From the IMG/VR virus record IMGVR_UViG_3300008050_000363, positions 1-22,265 of that record: a stretch of DNA of 22,265 nucleotides; one strand, written 5' to 3'. The translations under genes were made by a program, and so were the position numbers. Numbering within the stretch: position 1 is the first letter of the stretch; each line of letters begins with the position of its first letter. Below are positions 9,326-21,547 of this stretch, in pieces. The notes below the pieces were generated by a model, which searched no databases, was not told the DNA's origin, and saw only the letters and a list, made by a program, of their open reading frames with translations. This DNA comes from a virus.

Positions 9326-10027
9326 TTATATGATTTGAGGTCGTGGTTGAATCTGACCAATTTTTAATTTTTCCTCTAAAATTTGAGTTAACTGTATATG
9401 TTGTGCTTCGTTTAATTCTAATGCATCTAATGATGTTCTTATTTGGTAGAAGTCTTGTGTTTTTGTGAGTGCCTTATAATCATAATTGTTTAAGTCTTGT
9501 TCATTGTTTATTCTAGGACCCATAGGGATACCTGACATTGTTTCTGGTTCAATAGTCGTAACGCATTTCATTCTTGGTAGAGGTTCATGGTTCTCATCAA
9601 TAAAACCTAATATTTTTCTTAAAGGGTCGGATACAGTCCATTGCATGTGTCTTCGTACCCCATCCTTCATTAAACATAGAGCCGACCCATTATATAACAT
9701 TGTTCCATCAGGGAAGAAGGGATGTTCTTGATCTATCGTTTCTGCTAATTCTTCTTCTAGGTCTTCTATTCTTTCTATTAATGAATCTATTTGTTCATCT
9801 TTAGGATCTACATAATTTCGCACATATTCTGTGCTTCTTTCAATAAATGTTACGTGGGAATTATCTCCTTCTTTTTCCACATCAAAAAATAATTCATTAT
9901 ACATTTTAAAAAGTCTATCTACATTTATAGGGTCCCTAGATTTAGATAGTTCTGAAAAACTATTATCTATAGTTGCTTTGGTTTCTTTATCAGAATATAT
10001 TTTTTTCTTTAATTTTATAAGTTTCAT
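9326..10027 (-). CDS. Conserved hypothetical phage protein with coiled coil
   Basis: A 233-aa soluble protein that I do not recognise. A charged heptad-like stretch at about residues 78-99 (DEQIDSLIERIEDLEEELAE) predicts a coiled coil. It is followed by a compact segment with Pro, Gly and Trp (FFPDGTMLYNGSALCLMKDG, then MQWTVSDPLR) and a helical C-terminus ending in a Pro-Arg-rich tail. The start codon overlaps the stop of the upstream 390-aa gene by one base (TAATG), so translation is probably coupled. It sits between two structural genes of the wedge/fibre module and could be a small baseplate component or an assembly chaperone. Neither role is supported by a motif. Confidence 0.5.
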   Translation of the reverse strand: MKLIKLKKKIYSDKETKATIDNSFSELSKSRDPINVDRLFKMYNELFFDVEKEGDNSHVTFIERSTEYVRNYVDPKDEQIDSLIERIEDLEEELAETIDQEHPFFPDGTMLYNGSALCLMKDGVRRHMQWTVSDPLRKILGFIDENHEPLPRMKCVTTIEPETMSGIPMGPRINNEQDLNNYDYKALTKTQDFYQIRTSLDALELNEAQHIQLTQILEEKLKIGQIQPRPQII

Positions 10028-11200: not shown

Positions 11201-13093
11201 TTAGTATGTTGTTACTTTTCCTTTAATATCTGTGTTAGGGTATTTTAATTCAAAAATGCTAGGATCGAGTGAGGGGTATATTACTTTGTTTCTAGTTGCT
11301 GATGCAAAATCATATTTATATTGAGAATAACCTAAAGCCATATTACTTTTGTTGTCTAATTCTAGGTTTTCAACTGTTTGTACCCCCGTTACTCCTCCTA
11401 TTAAATTTTCTATTTCAGACATTATAATAGGTTGATTTATCTGCCATCTATCTATATTGAAGTAGTTTTTTAATTCAGATATGCAATTTAATAGTACTTC
11501 TTGGTTGTTATAATTTTTAAAAGCCGTTATTTGAAAGTCTAATTTAAAATTAATAATAAATGCGTCTTTAATATTAATAGCGTCTGTTAGCATTCTGTGT
11601 TGTTCCAAATAGGTAGATAAGTTTGTCTTTGTTGCTGTATTTAAGGTTGTTAATTGTTTTTTTGCATTATATCCTAAAGTATATAAATTCAAAGCTAAAG
11701 GATTAGGTATACGATTTGGTTCTGTTGTTAGGGGTGATATTTGATCATCTTGCATTATATAAGCTTTAGCTACTCTACCAAATTTAGAAGGCATAGATAA
11801 AGTTCTAACTAAATAATCATTTTTGGTTACTGTTCTTTGTTGTGTAGAAAAATTGGCCATAGCGTTTAGTCTTAATTCTTCCGTTGTTTCCCCTGATCCT
11901 CCCCCCCTCGCTTTTTCTGAGTTTGTAGAGGCTACTGATGATTTAATAAATTTTAATAAACTAGGATTTAGATTAGGTTTGTTTTTTGAATATAAAGTTT
12001 CTACTTTAGTAATAGTATTAGAATTAACATTTGATTCTAATCCCCCTCCCGTTAAATACCTTACAGTTAGTAGAGTATTGGATGGTGCTCTTCCATATGC
12101 GCGAGTATATAAAAAATTTGAGGGATCATAAGCTGTGTTTAGTTTATTTCTTCCGTCTTTAATACCCAAACCAATATTATCTGGATTTGGGATAATTTCT
12201 TCATCTGCCTTGTCTGAGGTTCCTGATCCAAATTGGATTTCTAGTTCTCCTGTTGATTTAAAGCGAGATATAAATCTTCTTGGTACTTTTTTTAATTTTA
12301 AAAGATAAGGTGTTTGTTGATTAAAACCATGTAATTCAGGATCTTCTGCCCCTGTGTTTGTAGTTTCATCAAATATAGTATCCTGAGCTAAATAAGGTAC
12401 TTCATGCCAATTATTTCCTTCTGTGTCTGTGATAGATTCTATCGATATTATGTTTTTATCAAATAAAGTTAATGTTTTAAATTGTTCAACTGATCCTATA
12501 GTGAATTCTTTGTTTTTTATTGTTCCTGATATAGCGTTCCCTTTTTTCTTTAAAAGAAAATATTCAGGATTATTTGAAATATCGTATTGATATATGCTTG
12601 TATCTGTGGGGTTAAAGCTAGATGAAAAATTAAAATCTATTGGTTCCGTTAGGTAGAATGTTGGGCCTTCTGTTGATTTAAAAACTGAATTTTTGCTTAC
12701 TTCTAGGGCATATTCCCAATCAGGAGTGTAATTGCCCCCATTATTTGTTGCAGGTACTAATTGGTATACTTCTAGGGTTGTAGATGCTGCTGTTGTTGCT
12801 TTTGGTCTATAACCCATAGAATATGCTAAATTATATAGGTTTTCTTTCTCCTTTGCAGTGGCTAAGAAAGTTTCTTGTATTTGAGTATCAGTGTAGAAAG
12901 AGAGAACATCCCCTACATAAGACGCCATTTCCATAAACATCATTCCTGGATTTCCCTCACTAAAATCATTAAAATTATTTGGGAAGTATACTTCTGCAAA
13001 TTCCATTAAGTTGTTTTTAAAAGAATTATAGTCTTTAGAAAGATATTTTACTTCTTTATCTTGTGTTTTATTTGATACTTTGTTGTAAGCCAT
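11201..13093 (-). CDS. 6: Baseplate wedge protein gp6 (baseplate J-like)
   Basis: A 630-aa baseplate wedge subunit of the gp6/baseplate-J family, which links neighbouring wedges into the inner baseplate ring. The N-terminal signature is clear: residues 17-100 contain YLSKDYNSF, YFPNNFNDFSEGNPGMMFME, ASYVGDVLSFY and a GYRP motif, the same order as in T4 gp6. The middle (about 390-450, with ARGGGSGETTEELRLNAM and QRTVTKNDY) is typical of baseplate J proteins. The C-terminal segment with YFNIDRWQINQPIIMSEIEN is also family-like. Its length is close to that of T4 gp6. The ATG overlaps the gp25 stop by one base (TAATG), so the partner wedge proteins gp25 and gp6 are translationally linked, as their shared role predicts. 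Confidence 0.93.
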   Translation of the reverse strand: MAYNKVSNKTQDKEVKYLSKDYNSFKNNLMEFAEVYFPNNFNDFSEGNPGMMFMEMASYVGDVLSFYTDTQIQETFLATAKEKENLYNLAYSMGYRPKATTAASTTLEVYQLVPATNNGGNYTPDWEYALEVSKNSVFKSTEGPTFYLTEPIDFNFSSSFNPTDTSIYQYDISNNPEYFLLKKKGNAISGTIKNKEFTIGSVEQFKTLTLFDKNIISIESITDTEGNNWHEVPYLAQDTIFDETTNTGAEDPELHGFNQQTPYLLKLKKVPRRFISRFKSTGELEIQFGSGTSDKADEEIIPNPDNIGLGIKDGRNKLNTAYDPSNFLYTRAYGRAPSNTLLTVRYLTGGGLESNVNSNTITKVETLYSKNKPNLNPSLLKFIKSSVASTNSEKARGGGSGETTEELRLNAMANFSTQQRTVTKNDYLVRTLSMPSKFGRVAKAYIMQDDQISPLTTEPNRIPNPLALNLYTLGYNAKKQLTTLNTATKTNLSTYLEQHRMLTDAINIKDAFIINFKLDFQITAFKNYNNQEVLLNCISELKNYFNIDRWQINQPIIMSEIENLIGGVTGVQTVENLELDNKSNMALGYSQYKYDFASATRNKVIYPSLDPSIFELKYPNTDIKGKVTTY

Positions 13094-13497
13094 TATTTAA
13101 AATTTAATTGTATTGTATCTTCAGATTGATCAAGATTGAACATGTAAGTTATTGATATATAGAGTAGGTTTTCATCCTCTATAAATTGGACATCAGTATT
13201 TGTTAATTGTATTTCGGGAATATAAAATTCTATTTGTTGGGATATGGTTTCGTCAAGTTCCTCTTCGTCTACGTGCTGTTCAAATAGTAGGTTTTTTAGC
13301 CCCACACCATAGTTAGGGTGATTTATTCTTTCACCTTGATCAGTTAAAAGAAGGTTAAGTAAATTGGTTTTTATTTGATCTTTAACTGTTTTCGTTCCTT
13401 CAAAAAGATTGACTTCATCTATAGGGAAAGCCATCCCAATAGTAACGTTACTATTAATGCTTAAAGGGTGTATTCTTCTTTTTATAGGGATTGGCAT
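13093..13497 (-). CDS. 25: Baseplate wedge protein gp25 (gpW/gp25 family)
   Basis: A 134-aa member of the gpW/gp25 family, the small wedge protein that, with gp6 and gp53, forms the core on which sheath assembly begins. Residues 52-73 hold the family hallmark: GERINHPNYGVGLKNLLFE, with the conserved Arg57, Pro61, Tyr63-Gly64 and the closing Leu-Phe-Glu. An upstream FPID segment and a C-terminal ITYMFNLDQSEDTIQLNF strand pair complete the usual fold. The length matches T4 gp25 closely. It is directly followed by gp6 with a one-base overlap. The stretch AAGGAA lies about 8 nt before its ATG, but that sequence is also the lysine-rich end of the preceding gene, so its use as a ribosome-binding site is uncertain. 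Confidence 0.93.
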   Translation of the reverse strand: MPIPIKRRIHPLSINSNVTIGMAFPIDEVNLFEGTKTVKDQIKTNLLNLLLTDQGERINHPNYGVGLKNLLFEQHVDEEELDETISQQIEFYIPEIQLTNTDVQFIEDENLLYISITYMFNLDQSEDTIQLNFK

Positions 13498-14943: not shown

Positions 14944-15396
14944 TTATATTGTTCTTACGTTTTTGCTTTTTACGTCTTTGATTTTTTTTATTAAAGATTT
15001 AATTTTTGCTCTTCTTGTTGCTACCATTCCTTCATTACCTGGGCTAGATACCCCTCCTGGAAATGTAAATTTTACTACAATGTCTGTAATTAAATCATCA
15101 ACCATCTTCAGGATGGATGTTAGTAGGTCTCCTGTTTTATCTCCTAATAGTACTGGTTCTGTGGCTAAGTCCCCATCTGAAGTTAGTCCTAAATATATTT
15201 TAGGGGCATTTACTACAAATTTATTGCCTTCTCCTCTTGAGGTATCAAAATGGAAACTCCCATTAGTACTAAATCCTATTGCTTTATCTGAAAATAAAAG
15301 AATAGAATCTTTTTTGGCATTAAATAATAATCTATCTGAATTTATTATTACTTGTTTTCCTTGATAATTTCCTGGGGTGTCTGGTTTATAACTCAT
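14944..15396 (-). CDS. Central spike-like protein (gp5 C-terminal beta-helix type)
   Basis: A 150-aa protein that resembles the C-terminal beta-helix of T4 gp5 and related spike proteins. Short repeated strands run through residues 10-75: GKQVIINSDRLLFNAKKD, SILLFSDKAIGFS, then NAPKIYLG. A VLLGDKTGDLLTSILKMVDD segment follows, as seen at the end of such spike modules. The C-terminal 40 residues are lysine-rich. It starts 2 nt after the stop of the amidase hub gene. The T4 gp5 chain carries its lytic domain and spike helix in one polypeptide; here the spike seems to be a separate gene, which may assemble onto one or both hub proteins. The assignment rests on strand pattern and position, not a catalytic motif. 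Confidence 0.6.
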   Translation of the reverse strand: MSYKPDTPGNYQGKQVIINSDRLLFNAKKDSILLFSDKAIGFSTNGSFHFDTSRGEGNKFVVNAPKIYLGLTSDGDLATEPVLLGDKTGDLLTSILKMVDDLITDIVVKFTFPGGVSSPGNEGMVATRRAKIKSLIKKIKDVKSKNVRTI

Positions 15397-15398
15397 AA

Positions 15399-17435
15399 TT
15401 ATGCTGATGTTTTATTGGTTAAATTATATACATATTGAGCTGTATTTTGGTAAGTGGTCCCATAAAAAGAGGAGAAATTGGATAGGGTCTCATCTGTATA
15501 CTGGGAGTAGTCTTTTATTATATCTGCGTAGTCTTTTAATTTCTTTTTATCAGACATTGATAATTGGTGTATGTGGGTTTTATATATGTTTTTATCAGGT
15601 ATTCCTATTAACTCACAATATTTAACATTATCCCATGTAGGGCATGATTTACCATATCCTTTTTTTATTGTTATTTGATTGTGACCAAATATTTTTATAT
15701 CAGGAAAAGCTTTTATGAAATAACGGCATAAATTTTCTATAGCGTAGGCTTGTGCTTGGGTTATATTGGGGTTATTAGTTTTACCAGGAGATAAGTTAGG
15801 TTTTGATAATGTTGTTTTATTAGTTCCAATCCATGATATATTTATTGTCTTTGAATTAGGTGCAAGTAATCCATTAATTCTAGTGCTTGTATATCCATTC
15901 CCCCCTATCCCATAAGAATGCCCTTTTTTAATCAAATCTACATTATAATTACACCCTCCTTCATCATCTATTGATATATTATACCCATGTCTTGACCATC
16001 CACCTGTTTTGCTCGGAGCAAAATAAGCAAAGTAATTGGAAAGTCCTATATTATCTTGGAAATCAGTTGCTGTTACATGAATACATAGGTTTTCTATTTT
16101 AGATAATTTTGAAGAATTTACCCCATCAGATTTTAATTTAGATATTAATTCAGATACAGGGTAAGGGTCTATTATCATTACATCCCCTCTATGTGGGGAT
16201 ATGTGTATGGGGTAGTCTATTTTTCCATCTTTCCATTCATTATATGCGGTGGTTGTTTGTTCTTTATTTTTGCAAATAGTAGGTGTTCCCCCCTCTCCCC
16301 TAACAAATTCACCCTCCTGGGGGTTTTCAATTGTATTGGATTCAGTTTGTTTTTCTTCTTCACTTAATTCAGTACCTGATACTTCTATGTCTTCCGTTGA
16401 CATTATATATTCTCCTGTTTCTATATTCTCAGTATATTCATCAAAAGGATTGATTTCTGTTTCTTCTTCGTCATCTTTTTCAGGTTCAATTACAGGAGTA
16501 TCTACTATAGTCTCGGGGATTATTACTACTTCTTCATCATCATCATCAACCTTTGGTGGTACATTGGTTGGTTCTATTATTTCTGGGGAATCTATTATTT
16601 GTTTAAAAGTGTTAGTAGTTTTTAAGTTAGCGCCAAATGATTGATTATTTAAAGATGCAGGGGTGAATCCTGTTATTTGTTGGTTTGAAGTCATGTAAAT
16701 GGCAGAACTATCTTCATTTGAGTTTTCTGTTGTGGGTATCCATCCTTCACTATCTTCTTCTATTTTTTGTCCATTCCTGATAATAGTAATAGGGTCTCCT
16801 GTTTCTCCTGTTTTGCTCCATTGGTTTTGGTTTTTTTCTGGTATACTATCCCCTCTATTAGTTGAACCAAATCTTATAGAATTACCAAATCTTCCCTCTA
16901 AAATCATATCCCCCTCATAAGGTAGTAATGGTTTTATATTTAATTCTTCTTTGAAATATTTTCCTAAATTTATATCAGTGCTACCGTCTGTGACTTTTCT
17001 TGTTATTCCATTATCCCTTTTTTGGTAATCATTAGAAGTGGGTTCATCTTCTAATGCTTTAGATGTGGGTAAAGCATTGTGGTGAGGATGATTCCAAATA
17101 TTTATTTGAGATAAGTAATAAAATGATTTACTTGATTTTTTATCATATATGCCTTTATCATTAGCTGATAAAATTAATACTACTTCATTTATTAAAGGGT
17201 AATCTTTTATATATGAAAATAGAGGTTTAGCATGATCTGATGAATTTTTATTTTGATAATGATCATTTTTGTCTAGTATAGAAAAGAAAATAGTCCCTAT
17301 AGCATCATATTCTCCAAGTTCCTTAGCCTTAGGGTGATTTATATCTAAGATGACATCTAAGACTCTCGCCGCCACCAAACCTGAGGTGTTTGAATTATTA
17401 TTATTTCTATTTTTTCTATTTTTTAATATCCCCAT
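15399..17435 (-). CDS. 5: Baseplate hub protein with zinc amidase domain (gp5-like)
   Basis: A 678-aa gp5-like hub protein. Residues 23-271 (from ARVLDVILDINHPKAKE to SFGANL) are the gp5-type N-terminal block, including EGRFGNSIRFGST and GDPITIIRNGQ. Residues 272-385 are a long acidic, probably flexible linker with a run of Asp and Glu. Residues about 447-605 are an Amidase_2-type N-acetylmuramoyl-L-alanine amidase: the likely zinc ligands are His453 (CIHVTATD), His585 (FGHNQI) and Cys598 (GKSCPTW), with Tyr485 in RHGYNIS and Lys596 as likely catalytic helpers, as in T7 lysozyme. It would cut the amide bond between muramic acid and the peptide during entry. T4 gp5 uses a lysozyme domain at this step instead. 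The N-terminal block is almost the same as in the 620-aa gene just upstream. Confidence 0.88.
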   Translation of the reverse strand: MGILKNRKNRNNNNSNTSGLVAARVLDVILDINHPKAKELGEYDAIGTIFFSILDKNDHYQNKNSSDHAKPLFSYIKDYPLINEVVLILSANDKGIYDKKSSKSFYYLSQINIWNHPHHNALPTSKALEDEPTSNDYQKRDNGITRKVTDGSTDINLGKYFKEELNIKPLLPYEGDMILEGRFGNSIRFGSTNRGDSIPEKNQNQWSKTGETGDPITIIRNGQKIEEDSEGWIPTTENSNEDSSAIYMTSNQQITGFTPASLNNQSFGANLKTTNTFKQIIDSPEIIEPTNVPPKVDDDDEEVVIIPETIVDTPVIEPEKDDEEETEINPFDEYTENIETGEYIMSTEDIEVSGTELSEEEKQTESNTIENPQEGEFVRGEGGTPTICKNKEQTTTAYNEWKDGKIDYPIHISPHRGDVMIIDPYPVSELISKLKSDGVNSSKLSKIENLCIHVTATDFQDNIGLSNYFAYFAPSKTGGWSRHGYNISIDDEGGCNYNVDLIKKGHSYGIGGNGYTSTRINGLLAPNSKTINISWIGTNKTTLSKPNLSPGKTNNPNITQAQAYAIENLCRYFIKAFPDIKIFGHNQITIKKGYGKSCPTWDNVKYCELIGIPDKNIYKTHIHQLSMSDKKKLKDYADIIKDYSQYTDETLSNFSSFYGTTYQNTAQYVYNLTNKTSA
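16623..17369 (-). repeat. Hub-gene duplication, copy 2 (in the amidase hub gene)
   Basis: This is the N-terminal block shared with 18512-19236. The two translations are roughly 85% identical by eye. The main difference is a 7-residue (21-nt) indel after SIRFGST. DNA identity is patchy but very high in places: a 74-nt exact match at 16987-17060 corresponds to 18854-18927. Similarity starts sharply at ARVLDV and stops sharply after SFGANL. Confidence 0.9.
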
Positions 17436-17448
17436 TATTTATTCTTAA

Positions 17449-19311
17449 TTAAACCTGAGTTTGATTTCGTTTTTCTTCTAAATATGCAAAAAATTCATTA
17501 GAGTCAGTATGTATATTGAAATCTTGGGCCATTTCAAATTCTGTTACCCCATGTGTTCTGCCTTCAAAATGTTGTTCGTTTGTATATCTCCATTCTATAT
17601 CTTTTCTCCCAAAAAAGGACTTTACATCATCTATTAAGTCTCTAGATAAACCACCATATCCATGTTTTTCAAAATCAGCTTTATGAGAAACTTCCGCCCA
17701 TACACTATCTAATTGTATATGTCTTGCATATCTTATATGATAATCTTCTGTTTGTTCTTTCCACCAGGTTTCATCCTTATTTTCTTCCCAATATTTCTTG
17801 CTTCTTTTTATTAAGACCTCTAAAGTAGGAATATGGATACTGTTATTTACAGGGTTATAGTGGGGCCTTATATCTCCTCTTATACCCGTTGGGCTTCCCA
17901 TAAATTTCATGTACCAAGCGTTATTATGCATTACTTTTACATCATAAAAATCCATAATTTCTAGTAATTTATCTGGAGTTATATAATGAATATTCTCAAA
18001 TGTATCATCCATACCTGGATAAAAATATTTCCATTCTTCATCTCCAAATAATTTTAGGACAAATTCCTTTCTCTTAAGATCTCTACCTTTTCTTTCAGTT
18101 TCGGGAAGTTCTTCTGAATCTGTAGATGCTACAGGAGTTCCATCACAATTTAATATTGTTATTGTATATGTGGATATATTTTCTTCACGTCTTTTTGTCC
18201 ATTTACTACTTCTATCAATTGAATAATTTACATCTGCCCTGAGAGTATATTTCCCCCCTTCAGGAAATCCATTATCTGAGAGAGCTCTATTAAGTTTAAT
18301 TTTAGCCCTAAATTGGGCTTGAGTTGTTGATGAGTTATATGTGGGTCCACTTCCTTCACCTGTAAAGCTTTGACCTTGAAGGGCCTTCATAGCTGGGGGG
18401 AATAGTTTATTATTATTACACATCCCTTCTTCTTCAATAATTTCTTCTTCAATAACTTCTTCTTCAATAATTTCTTCTTCAGTAGGAATGATATATTTTT
18501 GTGGTTCTGTTAAATTGGCACCAAATGATTGCTGGTTTAAAGATGCGGGAGAAAATCCAGTTATTTGTTGGTTGTGGGTTAAATATATAGATGTGTGGTC
18601 TTCGTATGTATTTTCTGTTGTTGGTTTCCACCCTTCATCGTTTATACCTGTGTTGTGTCCATTTCTGATAATAGTAATGGGGTCTCCTTCATCCCCCACC
18701 CTACTCCATTGGTTTTTATTTTTATTAGTTGAACCAAATCTTATAGAATTACCAAATCTTCCCTCAAATATTCTGTCTCCCTCATAAGATAATAATGGTT
18801 TTATATTTAATTGTTCTTTAAAATATCTCCCCAACACAATATCTGTTCCCTCATCTGTGACTTTTCTTGTTATTCCATTATCCCTTTTTTGGTAATCATT
18901 AGAAGTGGGTTCATCTTCTAATGCTTTGGAGGTTGGTAAAGCATTGTGGTGGGGATGGTTCCAAAGGTTTATTTGTGGTAAGTAATAAAATGATTTACTT
19001 GATTTTTTACCATATATGCCTTTATCATTAGCTGATAAAATTAATACTACTTCATTTATTAAAGGATAGTATTTTAAGTGAGAAAATAATGGTTTAGCAT
19101 GATCTGATGAGTTTTTATTTTGATAGTGATCATTTTTATCTAATATAGAAAAGAAAATAGTCCCTATAGCATCATATTCTCCATGTTCTTTGGCTTTGGG
19201 GTGATTTATATCTAAGATGACATCTAAGACTCTCGCAGATGTTAAGGTGTGGTTACTTTTTAGAGAATTGGAATCCTCTGTGGTGATATTTTTTTCTTTG
19301 ATAACAGGCAT
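17449..19311 (-). CDS. Second gp5-like hub protein with zincin-like C-terminal domain
   Basis: A 620-aa paralogue of the adjacent amidase hub protein. Residues 26-267 are the shared gp5-type N-terminal block (ARVLDVILDINHPKAKE to SFGANL). Residues 277-295 are an acidic linker of Glu/Ile repeats. Residues about 320-400 form a beta-rich region of unknown kind. The C-terminal 130 residues show a zincin-like layout: SIHIPTLEVL, then DSVWAEVSHKADF with Glu540 and His543, then THGVTEFEMAQDF with Glu591/Glu593. This resembles a group of peptidases in which AE--H and a later E-E replace the classical HE--H, but the first ligand His is Ala539 here. It could be an active variant, a degenerate enzyme or only a look-alike. 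It ends 13 nt before the amidase hub gene. Being a hub protein is well supported; enzymatic activity is not. Confidence 0.75.
   Translation of the reverse strand: MPVIKEKNITTEDSNSLKSNHTLTSARVLDVILDINHPKAKEHGEYDAIGTIFFSILDKNDHYQNKNSSDHAKPLFSHLKYYPLINEVVLILSANDKGIYGKKSSKSFYYLPQINLWNHPHHNALPTSKALEDEPTSNDYQKRDNGITRKVTDEGTDIVLGRYFKEQLNIKPLLSYEGDRIFEGRFGNSIRFGSTNKNKNQWSRVGDEGDPITIIRNGHNTGINDEGWKPTTENTYEDHTSIYLTHNQQITGFSPASLNQQSFGANLTEPQKYIIPTEEEIIEEEVIEEEIIEEEGMCNNNKLFPPAMKALQGQSFTGEGSGPTYNSSTTQAQFRAKIKLNRALSDNGFPEGGKYTLRADVNYSIDRSSKWTKRREENISTYTITILNCDGTPVASTDSEELPETERKGRDLKRKEFVLKLFGDEEWKYFYPGMDDTFENIHYITPDKLLEIMDFYDVKVMHNNAWYMKFMGSPTGIRGDIRPHYNPVNNSIHIPTLEVLIKRSKKYWEENKDETWWKEQTEDYHIRYARHIQLDSVWAEVSHKADFEKHGYGGLSRDLIDDVKSFFGRKDIEWRYTNEQHFEGRTHGVTEFEMAQDFNIHTDSNEFFAYLEEKRNQTQV
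18427..18486 (-). repeat. Four-copy 15-nt tandem repeat encoding an acidic linker
   Basis: On the plus strand the unit ttcttcttcaataat occurs at 18427, 18442 (last base c) and 18457, with a degenerate fourth copy at 18472. In the minus-strand gene this encodes a Glu-Glu-Glu-Ile-Ile/Val type linker between the shared N-terminal block and the unique C-terminal part. Such a unit could change copy number by slippage, always in frame because it is 15 nt long. Confidence 0.85.
18512..19236 (-). repeat. Hub-gene duplication, copy 1 (in the zincin-like hub gene)
   Basis: First copy, in transcription order, of the shared N-terminal block; partner is 16623-17369. Both copies start at ARVLDVILDINHPKAKE and end at SFGANL. 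The flanking N-terminal 22-25 residues and everything downstream differ, so the shared block is a discrete module. Confidence 0.9.
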
Positions 19312-19698
19312 TTATTCCTCTATTTCTTCTTCTGTGGGTGCTTCTATTTGTTTTGGTTCTTCAACTGTTTTAGCTATTTCTTCTGCTAGTCCTTGAAGTT
19401 GTTCCATTTCGGCATCTGTTAATAATCCACCATCCCCCGAACTAGCAGATGATGTTGATAAACGTTGAACAATAGCCGCCATTTTTATTAATTGGTCGTC
19501 ATTTTTGACACTTATTTCTAAATATTCCTTAATAAGAGGAACTATAACGGTAGCGTCTCCTAAAGATTGGACTAAAGGTCTCAACTCTGCTATTAAAGCT
19601 GCGAGTTGTTTTGCTTTTTTTGTTTGATTGTTATGAATTTCTTTAAGAATGTCTGAGAAAGTCTTATCATCAAATAATATTTGATTTAATGGGTCCAT
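19312..19698 (-). CDS. Acidic helical hypothetical protein
   Basis: A 128-aa protein with no recognised family. Residues 1-80 are helical and fairly hydrophobic (KQLAALIAELRPLVQSLGDA, then VPLIKEYLEISVKN). A Ser/Gly-rich break (STSSASSGDGG) and a second short helix follow, and the tail is strongly acidic, ending EAPTEEEIEE. The gene is preceded by one copy of the ATATTTATAA leader element only 9 nt from the ATG, and its stop abuts the start of the 620-aa hub gene (TAA then ATG). The GAGGA in its last codons lies at a good distance for the hub gene's start and could act as a ribosome-binding site. It may be an adaptor or assembly partner for the hub; no motif shows this. Confidence 0.5.
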   Translation of the reverse strand: MDPLNQILFDDKTFSDILKEIHNNQTKKAKQLAALIAELRPLVQSLGDATVIVPLIKEYLEISVKNDDQLIKMAAIVQRLSTSSASSGDGGLLTDAEMEQLQGLAEEIAKTVEEPKQIEAPTEEEIEE

Positions 19699-19724: not shown

Positions 19725-20495
19725 TTAGACTCTTATATACCCTGTTTTATCGAATTCGGCATATAAATCTTTATATAGGACTTTGAGTTTTTTGGTTACC
19801 TTAGTAATTACGGGGGTATCCACTTCTGTCATTTCACGAATATAAATGTATAGTGCTTTTTTGTTGAAGATTTCTAGGTTTTCTCTTCGTTTAAATAGAA
19901 TGTTAATTGCGTCACATACTTTACGATCCTTTTCTTTCTTAAACATTGTAAACATATGTTTATCTATATATTCTGTGAAAAAATCAATAAAATCCTTTAT
20001 TTCTTGTTTACGACCATCCCTACCTAATTGATGTAAAACGTTATCATCTTCGTCTGCTTTTAAAACATCCACAGTAGCTTTCATTTTCTTATAATTGTTA
20101 TTATTATATAAGATGAGGTAATTTTTACCCACAATCGAAAAATAACTGAATGCTTTTGAACCTCTTTCGGGTTTAAAGTAATCTAGTTTTTCTAATAAAA
20201 AACATATAACCTCGTGTTTAAGGTCTTCAAGTGAATCTACTTCTGTATAGTAGAATTTGAATGTATGTATTAAATTTTCCGCTAGTTTATAGAATGGATA
20301 CCATATTCTATCTTTGAATATCTTATCTCTATCATCTTGGTTGGATGAAGCTAAGTATTCAGCTATTGCTGCGTCTGTGTCTTCTGTGAAATATCTTTTT
20401 TTGGTTCTCTTACGGCCTCTTTTTTTAGGTTGACCTTCTTTCGGGGGCTCAAGAGAACCAGTGTTAACTGGTTCTTTTGGTATAAAATTTGTCAT
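19725..20495 (-). CDS. 55: Late-transcription sigma factor (gp55-like)
   Basis: A 256-aa divergent sigma-70-type factor like T4 gp55, which directs host RNA polymerase to phage late promoters. The N-terminus is proline-rich and then very basic (KKRGRKRTKKRYFT, residues 24-36). Residues about 60-130 hold the sigma region 2-like core: WYPFYKLAENLIHTFKFYYT, then SLEDLKHEVICFLLEKLDYF with KPERGSKAFSYFSIVGKNYL. This arrangement is very close to that of late sigma factors I know from marine T4-like phages. The last 60 residues are helical and basic. It lies 6 nt after the upstream gene and 26 nt before the next gene, whose leader contains a candidate promoter element. The window's structural genes are its likely targets. 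Confidence 0.88.
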   Translation of the reverse strand: MTNFIPKEPVNTGSLEPPKEGQPKKRGRKRTKKRYFTEDTDAAIAEYLASSNQDDRDKIFKDRIWYPFYKLAENLIHTFKFYYTEVDSLEDLKHEVICFLLEKLDYFKPERGSKAFSYFSIVGKNYLILYNNNNYKKMKATVDVLKADEDDNVLHQLGRDGRKQEIKDFIDFFTEYIDKHMFTMFKKEKDRKVCDAINILFKRRENLEIFNKKALYIYIREMTEVDTPVITKVTKKLKVLYKDLYAEFDKTGYIRV

Positions 20496-20755: not shown

Positions 20756-21547
20756 TTAGTCTTTAAAAAATGAATCTATAACATCTAATGTTGCTGATGC
20801 TAGTTTTGGGTTATTTGCTGTGTTGACTTTTTTTGCTGTTCTGAGTGCTTTATCACCTTTTGAAGCGTTAGCAGGTTTGGTTGATTTGGTTGTTGACTTT
20901 GGGTTAGCGGCATTATCCCATAACTCAAATTCAATTTGAGCAGCCATATGATCTGCTTGGTGCATTAATAAAGGTAAGTGTGTTCTTAATCTTGTTTCCT
21001 TTTGACCAGACATAAAGTAAAACTTATTTGATTCATCATATAAACCATCATGGATTTTAATTGTAATAAACTCGTTTTGAGTTACTTTACAACCAATTTC
21101 TTGAAGTAGAAATAATGAACGTTCCGGTATTTTCATTGCTGGGATGTCAGTATTGAATTTATAGATTTGACCTAATTTATCAATATGCCATTGTGAGTCG
21201 TTTGGAGTATAGTACTCGCCTTCTTGTTGACCCATCTTGCCTAAATCATGGAATAAAGCTGCGAAATGCATTTCTTCAATTGTATATGTGGATATATCAC
21301 CACCCATGTCTGTCCACGTTTCATATAATTTATTAGCACAATCAAAGACACGCAAAACATGGTCAGTATAACCACCTGCAAATGCTGAATGATGCCAATT
21401 TTTACTTGAAGCAGGCATCATCATCATTCTTTCTTTATATTTATCTAAGAATGGTAATAGTATGTCTGTTCGTTCTTTTGAGAAAGATGATTCTATTACA
21501 TTTATATAACGGTTCCAATTTGTTTGGATTTGTTCTGCTGATAACAT
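20756..21547 (-). CDS. HD-domain phosphohydrolase
   Basis: A 263-aa protein with a metal-dependent HD domain. The likely ligands are in order: His63 in GGYTDHVLRV, the His100-Asp101 pair in FAALFHDLGKMG, and Asp199 in LMHQADHMAA; His52/His53, His122 and His166 are additional candidates. HD enzymes remove phosphate or pyrophosphate from nucleotides or cleave cyclic nucleotides; the substrate cannot be read from this sequence. The C-terminal 50 residues (about 213-250) are rich in Lys, Ser, Thr and Ala and look disordered. The start is 1 nt after the previous stop. AGGA lies 10 nt before the ATG but belongs to the coding end of the upstream gene. Possible roles are nucleotide-pool control or turnover of a signalling nucleotide, both inferred. 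Confidence 0.85.
   Translation of the reverse strand: MLSAEQIQTNWNRYINVIESSFSKERTDILLPFLDKYKERMMMMPASSKNWHHSAFAGGYTDHVLRVFDCANKLYETWTDMGGDISTYTIEEMHFAALFHDLGKMGQQEGEYYTPNDSQWHIDKLGQIYKFNTDIPAMKIPERSLFLLQEIGCKVTQNEFITIKIHDGLYDESNKFYFMSGQKETRLRTHLPLLMHQADHMAAQIEFELWDNAANPKSTTKSTKPANASKGDKALRTAKKVNTANNPKLASATLDVIDSFFKD

Follow-up and report, generated by a model that had tools for sequence, protein, structure and literature searches.

Tandem gp5/VgrG-type hub genes with a shared N-terminal module and different C-terminal domains in a phage tail locus

Two adjacent genes for gp5/VgrG-type hub proteins, which share an N-terminal module (N-module) and then continue into different C-terminal domains, were found in an IMG/VR virus record of 22,265 bases (32% GC), here called the window and analysed over its full length. 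The phage is described as marine, and the long ORFs of the window are on the minus strand. The arrangement is real and unusual, and the family to which it belongs stands out for an effector-swapping locus. We consider it rather probable that the tail tip encoded by the window is a split one of the gp5/VgrG type, with two hub paralogs and both effectors on one tip, most likely in mixed trimers. A fuller version is offered only tentatively. In it, a single needle would be a mixed trimer of both paralogs that delivers two different envelope-acting domains together, and gene conversion would maintain the similarity of the shared module. Such a needle, encoded at an effector-swapping locus found across the lineage, would be the phage version of a VgrG heterotrimer. 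The features on which the analysis draws are as follows.

19312–19698, minus strand: conserved 128-aa gene, also located ahead of the hub in relatives, that bounds the effector slot upstream
17449–19311, minus strand: HUB_A, 620 aa; hub N-module (residues ~24–267), acidic linker and C-terminal domain without family
18511–19242, minus strand: N-module of HUB_A, residues 24–267
18854–18927, minus strand: 74-nt exact repeat, HUB_A copy (codons ~129–152)
15399–17435, minus strand: HUB_B, 678 aa; hub N-module (residues 21–272), acidic linker and predicted amidase (about residues 408–621)
16620–17375, minus strand: N-module of HUB_B, residues 21–272
16987–17060, minus strand: 74-nt exact repeat, HUB_B copy
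~16440, minus strand: NPFDEY motif in the acidic linker of HUB_B, residue 329
14944–15396, minus strand: spike gene, 150 aa, gp5C-like; the family HMM matches residues 239–375 of the immuto hub (E = 1.6e-30)
13093–13497, minus strand: gp25-like baseplate wedge protein, downstream (PF04965, E = 7.7e-13)
11201–13093, minus strand: gp6-like baseplate wedge subunit (phrog_219, E = 2.1e-21)

The gene order is the 128-aa gene, HUB_A, HUB_B, the 150-aa spike gene, genes of 325 and 140 aa, gp25 and gp6. The 128-aa gene abuts HUB_A without a gap and only 2 nt separate HUB_B from the spike gene, a single copy of which is shared by both hubs in the window. The initial annotation, made from the sequence by eye, had described two adjacent hub genes, and both are indeed intact ORFs on the minus strand, 13 nt apart. 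Elsewhere in the window, a 256-aa gene (19725–20495), located two genes upstream of the hub here and in relatives, has weak similarity to sigma-70 (NCBIfam sigma70-ECF, E = 0.0024, short of its cut-off). A 263-aa HD-type metal-dependent phosphohydrolase (20756–21547; phrog_28876, E = 2.8e-13) is very highly conserved across relatives, at about 77–92%, and the 685-aa product of 251–2308, which contains a concanavalin A-like (Laminin_G_3) domain (E = 5e-12), is likely a tail fibre or adhesin. Many relatives (L015, L029, L047, L051 and L060) have a pair of neighbouring homologues in place of the downstream 233-aa gene at 9326–10027, and hence this is another tail gene that has been tandemly duplicated in this family.

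The block shared by HUB_A and HUB_B spans ~252 residues that are 82% identical, and 617/748 nt (82%) are identical at the DNA level (E = 0). The length of ~245 residues first given for this block was close (about 250–252), and the identity of ~85% was an overestimate. The N-module comprises an OB fold followed by downstream beta segments, and residues ~20–115 were modelled by AlphaFold2 with pLDDT mostly 70–94. The best matches to the OB fold were the P1 baseplate (9vzk_q), the cyanophage A-1(L) baseplate (8kea_D), Salmonella VgrS (9mlp_C), the Streptomyces coelicolor injection system (9gtr_q) and phage SN Orf41 (4ru3), with Z 5.6–7.1 over 68–86 residues. As unrelated OB folds follow closely in Z, the modelled OB match taken by itself would be moderate evidence for a hub. 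Fusion to a spike domain in other phages is stronger evidence. Flavobacterium phage immuto encodes the N-module and the spike domain in one gene (spike HMM E = 1.6e-30), and the two are likewise fused in Microcystis phage Mel-JY01 (2.6e-26) and in the 484-kb phage LR756508 (1.3e-10). Since the N-module is fused to the spike family elsewhere, the gp5 of the window's family is split after the effector. From the OB fold matches, the spike fusions in other phages and the baseplate genes nearby, we conclude that the N-module is a gp5/VgrG-type hub piece, in agreement with the gp5-like identity first proposed. Gp5_OB (PF06714) had no match in the window in a search that also left the controls unmatched, and a direct Pfam scan was silent. 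A search of bacterial genomes for the hub module found none.

Scans of viral contigs, together with three isolate or annotated phage stretches, yielded 158 distinct module-bearing extracts and 117 distinct hub protein sets; this sample consists of the best 80 matches per query and may lack records that are very close to the window, and frequencies are indicative only. In 96/97 distinct loci flanked by the 128-aa gene on one side and the spike family on the other there is exactly one hub, and the window is the lone exception. A separate M15 gene is present in 31 of these 97 loci, a fused amidase in 23, a fused M15 domain in 16, a fused domain of the type found in HUB_A (A-type) in 5, a separate amidase in 4 and a fused C39 domain in 1, while 8 have no effector; the window has an amidase and an A-type domain, and the rest are others or unassigned. 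The Pfam names of slot representatives are Amidase_2, Peptidase_M15_3, Peptidase_C39_2 and Phage_lysozyme2. The effector state changed at least 19 times on a tree of 68 hubs, and the closest neighbours of the window pair on it have a C39 (L007) and an M15 (L103) effector. Judged from these gene arrangements, the locus is best described as an effector slot, in which the hub is usually single and the effector is fused or separate. Hubs without an effector between module and spike (L040, L055 and L081–L085) imply that some lineages can dispense with the effector. Large hub-slot effectors without a Pfam match were seen at L150:9020-11056, L151:2131-4350, L163:7932-10535 and L185:939-3017; those of L150 and L151 are separate genes (679 and 740 aa), and that of L185 is GH19-like by eye. 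The hub C-termini of L207, L215 and L220 consist of an NCxxCxFHxxxxCxxWNA-like Cys-rich segment and a small domain, with no recognisable enzyme and no confident Pfam match.

Two hubs were found only in the window and in L065 among the 158 extracts. A comparison of one- and two-copy states in related genomes, suggested at the outset, thus returned mostly one copy. The L065 contig ends within its second hub copy, and the first copy has a Phage_lysozyme2 domain. The L065 copies are 87–88% identical, with the next best hub at 60%, and are sisters (100/98) placed far from the window pair on the tree; their dS is 0.78 and their dN/dS 0.09, which marks this pair too as not recent and as under purifying selection. 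The window and L065 pairs would represent either two independent events or independent homogenisation, and the rare two-copy state may be transient.

The C-terminal part of HUB_B matched phrog_822 (E = 2e-13), and its modelled fold places it among LysC, AmpD, T7 lysozyme and PGRPs. LysC (6ssc) was retrieved with Z 9.6 (133 residues aligned, rmsd 3.3), and ranks 1 to 45 were all amidases or PGRPs. By family motif, we take the zinc ligands to be H453 (in CIHVTA), H585 (in FGHNQ) and C598 (in KSCP). The family match, the fold and the His/His/Cys ligands bear out the zinc amidase that had been noticed in one copy, and the C-terminus of HUB_B is assigned as a predicted Amidase_2/PGRP-type N-acetylmuramoyl-L-alanine amidase with all three zinc ligands. 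No close relatives of this amidase were found among the viral contigs searched. An acidic-flanked motif ([ST]PFD.L or SVYDLLxxxDNF-like) precedes the enzyme and moves with it. It is at residue 329 in HUB_B, and was also seen, in linkers or separate amidase genes, in L001, L007, L009, L026, L065, L146–L149 and L163. Overall, it accompanies 14/15 fused M15 domains, 2/2 C39 domains, 4/4 separate amidase genes and 7/17 fused amidases, and is found in 0/6 A-type hubs, HUB_A being without it, and in about 6.5% of shuffled linkers. This motif may be a docking segment.

HUB_A and HUB_B are sisters in a tree of 59 hubs (support 100/100) and in trees of the two module parts (100/100 and 97/82), and their C-terminal parts sort into different clusters or families. 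Duplication followed by domain replacement, as first proposed, is supported by these results, and the 100/100 sisterhood rules out two ancient separate families, the outcome named as a refutation. The duplication is not a recent one, as had been suggested, because dS over the shared block is 0.71. With dN/dS 0.17, both copies are under purifying selection, and comparison of the coding sequences indicates that they are old or imported. The low dN/dS and the lack of stops also rule out a decaying or dead gene.

Divergence between the two modules is mosaic. The 74-nt exact match reported initially was located in both genes, and a run of this length was significant in a permutation test (p = 0.0004) and in its synonymous-only version (p = 0.007). 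Similarity ends at SFGANL (residues 262–267 in HUB_A and 266–271 in HUB_B), beyond which it is nil. The initial annotation saw a sharp edge here, and while the end of similarity was placed correctly, it is less sharp than described, as identity is already lower from residue ~165. HUB_A and HUB_B are 91% identical over residues 24–165 and 75% identical over residues 166–267, with a nucleotide identity of 0.66–0.72 over the last ~65 codons of the module. SFGANL is the end of the alignment and not necessarily the exchange point. The tree distance between HUB_A and HUB_B is 0.08 over residues 24–165, where the nearest other hub is at about 0.57; over residues 166–267 it is 0.35, HUB_A is 0.42 from the nearest other hub and HUB_B is nearer to L001 than to HUB_A. 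Other hub pairs are better conserved in their 3′ part (the difference averages -0.09, s.d. 0.06), as opposed to +0.16 in the window pair, and a contrast of this kind, high in the 5′ part and low in the 3′ part, was seen in 0/6778 control pairs, which are not independent of one another.

Synonymous sites differ at 19/120 up to residue 155 versus 28/82 after it (p = 0.004, with the cut chosen post hoc), a contrast that depends on where the cut is placed (p = 0.057 at residue 165). Local synonymous constraint was rejected as the cause of the identical patch, because between-genome controls have no synonymous deficit at residues 81–155 (control mean 0.005, window pair -0.18; 2/1499 pairs as low, pairs not independent). 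The mosaic likely reflects gene conversion or a crossover within the module, with an edge around residues 155–170, and the identical patch is consistent with the gene conversion raised initially, given the mosaic identity and the synonymous contrast. Three origins could be envisaged: an older split was followed by gene conversion that homogenised the 5′ two thirds, or the 3′ part of HUB_A arrived with the new effector via an in-module crossover, or the 3′ part of HUB_A evolved fast (end branch 0.23 versus 0.11).

The C-terminal domain of HUB_A could not be placed in a family. Residues ~430–620 resemble only hub C-termini such as those of L053, L063, L070 and L092 (about 31–34% identity over the aligned parts). 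Queries of viral contigs, phages, bacterial genomes and the PDB with the A-type domain returned nothing beyond known A-type hubs, and the HUB_A C-terminus gave no significant E against pfam, phrogs or ncbifam. The AlphaFold2 model of the C-terminus was mostly below pLDDT 60; Foldseek and VIA-align searches with the HUB_A model matched the OB part alone, and a BFVD search yielded proteins of uncultured phages at low TM, of which one carries a GH19 annotation. The domain had been called zincin-like. However, the supposed motif is WAEVSH in HUB_A, WSQIAH in L070 and WAQTAH in L092, HExxH is absent from every A-type domain, and the putative catalytic Glu (E540 in HUB_A) is Gln in both L070 and L092. 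With neither a family match nor a usable fold, the zincin assignment is not supported. R482, H484, an NSIHIP segment with H493, W538, H543 and D546 are conserved in the A-type domains compared, and a metal site built on the conserved His residues is possible. On visual inspection, the main domain of HUB_A is preceded by a GEG...A...A domain (residues ~310–370), which in L053-type hubs comes after the main domain instead, as though the two had been permuted.

As the HUB_A domain is without an assigned fold or function, the term two effectors rests on one recognised enzyme, and HUB_A could instead be a structural or binding variant, a decoy or pseudo-enzyme that tunes the number of amidases per trimer. 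The missing HExxH, the Gln substitutions and the lack of an enzyme family match would all suit such a protein, but every A-type domain compared retains His484, His493, His543 and Asp546, as would be expected of a metal site, and the A-type hub is the sole hub in L053, L063, L070 and L092, so the domain acts by itself. A decoy copy had been suggested initially; in the sense of a dead gene it is contradicted by the selection results above, and as a catalytically inert domain we regard it as an unlikely candidate.

In the split tail tip carrying both effectors, the reading we prefer, the N-module would mount on the hub, the product of the separate downstream gene would form the needle spike, and each effector would sit on a flexible acidic linker between the two. 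The pair would have arisen by duplication, or by uptake of the hub of a close relative; the effector would have been replaced by recombination within the conserved module, part of which was later homogenised. Both hubs are probably made, and both should be able to mount on the same single spike. The resulting tip would have two effectors, most likely in mixed trimers, which are favoured because the module is nearly alike in HUB_A and HUB_B and there is a single spike gene. Precedents among the VgrG paralogs of T6SSs include both mixing and non-mixing cases. On contraction the effectors would enter the periplasm, where HUB_B would cleave peptidoglycan and HUB_A would target some envelope component.

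Each particle might alternatively carry a homotrimer of either HUB_A or HUB_B, giving a mixed virion population with two wall activities. The last third of the module is the most divergent (75%) and is where trimer contacts could have specialised, and VgrG1 and VgrG2 of Serratia marcescens form no heterotrimers (PMC4924876). Against such alternative tips, both proteins come from one hub locus and share one spike gene, and the 91% identity at residues 24–165 argues against specificity in the OB part; we think them improbable. It is also doubtful, and slightly more so, that the pair is a recombination intermediate without a selected joint function, in which a second hub bearing a new effector joins in tandem and recombination between the shared modules then reduces the locus to a single hub with one effector or the other. 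The numerous effector changes, set beside only 2 two-copy loci in 158 extracts, and the mosaic module with its likely crossover or conversion edge would be expected of such a process, but the dS (0.71 and 0.78) and dN/dS (0.17 and 0.09) of the window and L065 pairs point to long constraint, unless the second copy arrived already diverged. An assembly artefact, in which two related phage genomes were misjoined at shared sequence, is very improbable: the 74-nt exact match is a typical short-read misjoin site, but an in-module misjoin would produce one chimeric hub and not two complete ones, the 13-nt junction between the end of HUB_A and the start of HUB_B is ordinary unique sequence, and L065 is an independent second tandem from another sample.

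The tip with two hub paralogs can be compared with several known systems. T4 gp5, the tail lysozyme, taken together with gp27 and gp5C, has the same order of OB module, enzyme and beta-helical spike. It is cut between lysozyme and spike (Ser351/Ala352) to give gp5* and gp5C (PMC3004832), and this proteolytic cut lies at the boundary where the window's family has separate genes. In the window, by contrast, the division is made at the gene level, the enzyme can be exchanged for others and there are two hub paralogs per spike gene. The hub genes of immuto and Mel-JY01 share the N-module, the spike family and the baseplate order with the window, but have module and spike in one gene with no effector between them; in Mel-JY01 an annotated chitinase is the separate next gene. 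In Bacillus phage 0305phi8-36 (gp147) and its relative BtI1, hub cell-wall domains have been remodelled between related contractile phages, and the parts of that report consulted describe no gp5-type tandem hub duplicate with swapped effectors (PMC2147016); the peptidase domains of gp147 differ in being on a gp27-type hub. In the titles and abstracts surveyed, tandem hub duplicates of the window kind were not described.

The evolved VgrG paralogs of T6SSs are similar in having a near-identical N-terminal mounting region and different C-terminal effectors in one genome, and VgrG2b carries a metallopeptidase (PMC6899460). A heterotrimeric VgrG complex was reported to be required in Vibrio cholerae, and later work found that the requirement depends on the effectors (PMC8668125). 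The VgrG effector follows the spike, whereas that of the window precedes it, as in T4 gp5, and VgrG is a gp27 and gp5 fusion in a T6SS cluster whereas the window is a phage baseplate locus. Evolved VgrG is the closest functional analogue of the window pair, which by membership is a gp5-type phage hub. Tail-tip enzymes help to decide whether a phage breaches a given envelope, and a fixed mount with a repeatedly swapped effector, sometimes with two hubs, makes heteromeric phage spikes and the trade in entry enzymes testable. The family also connects phage gp5 with those VgrG spikes of bacterial secretion systems that carry several effectors.
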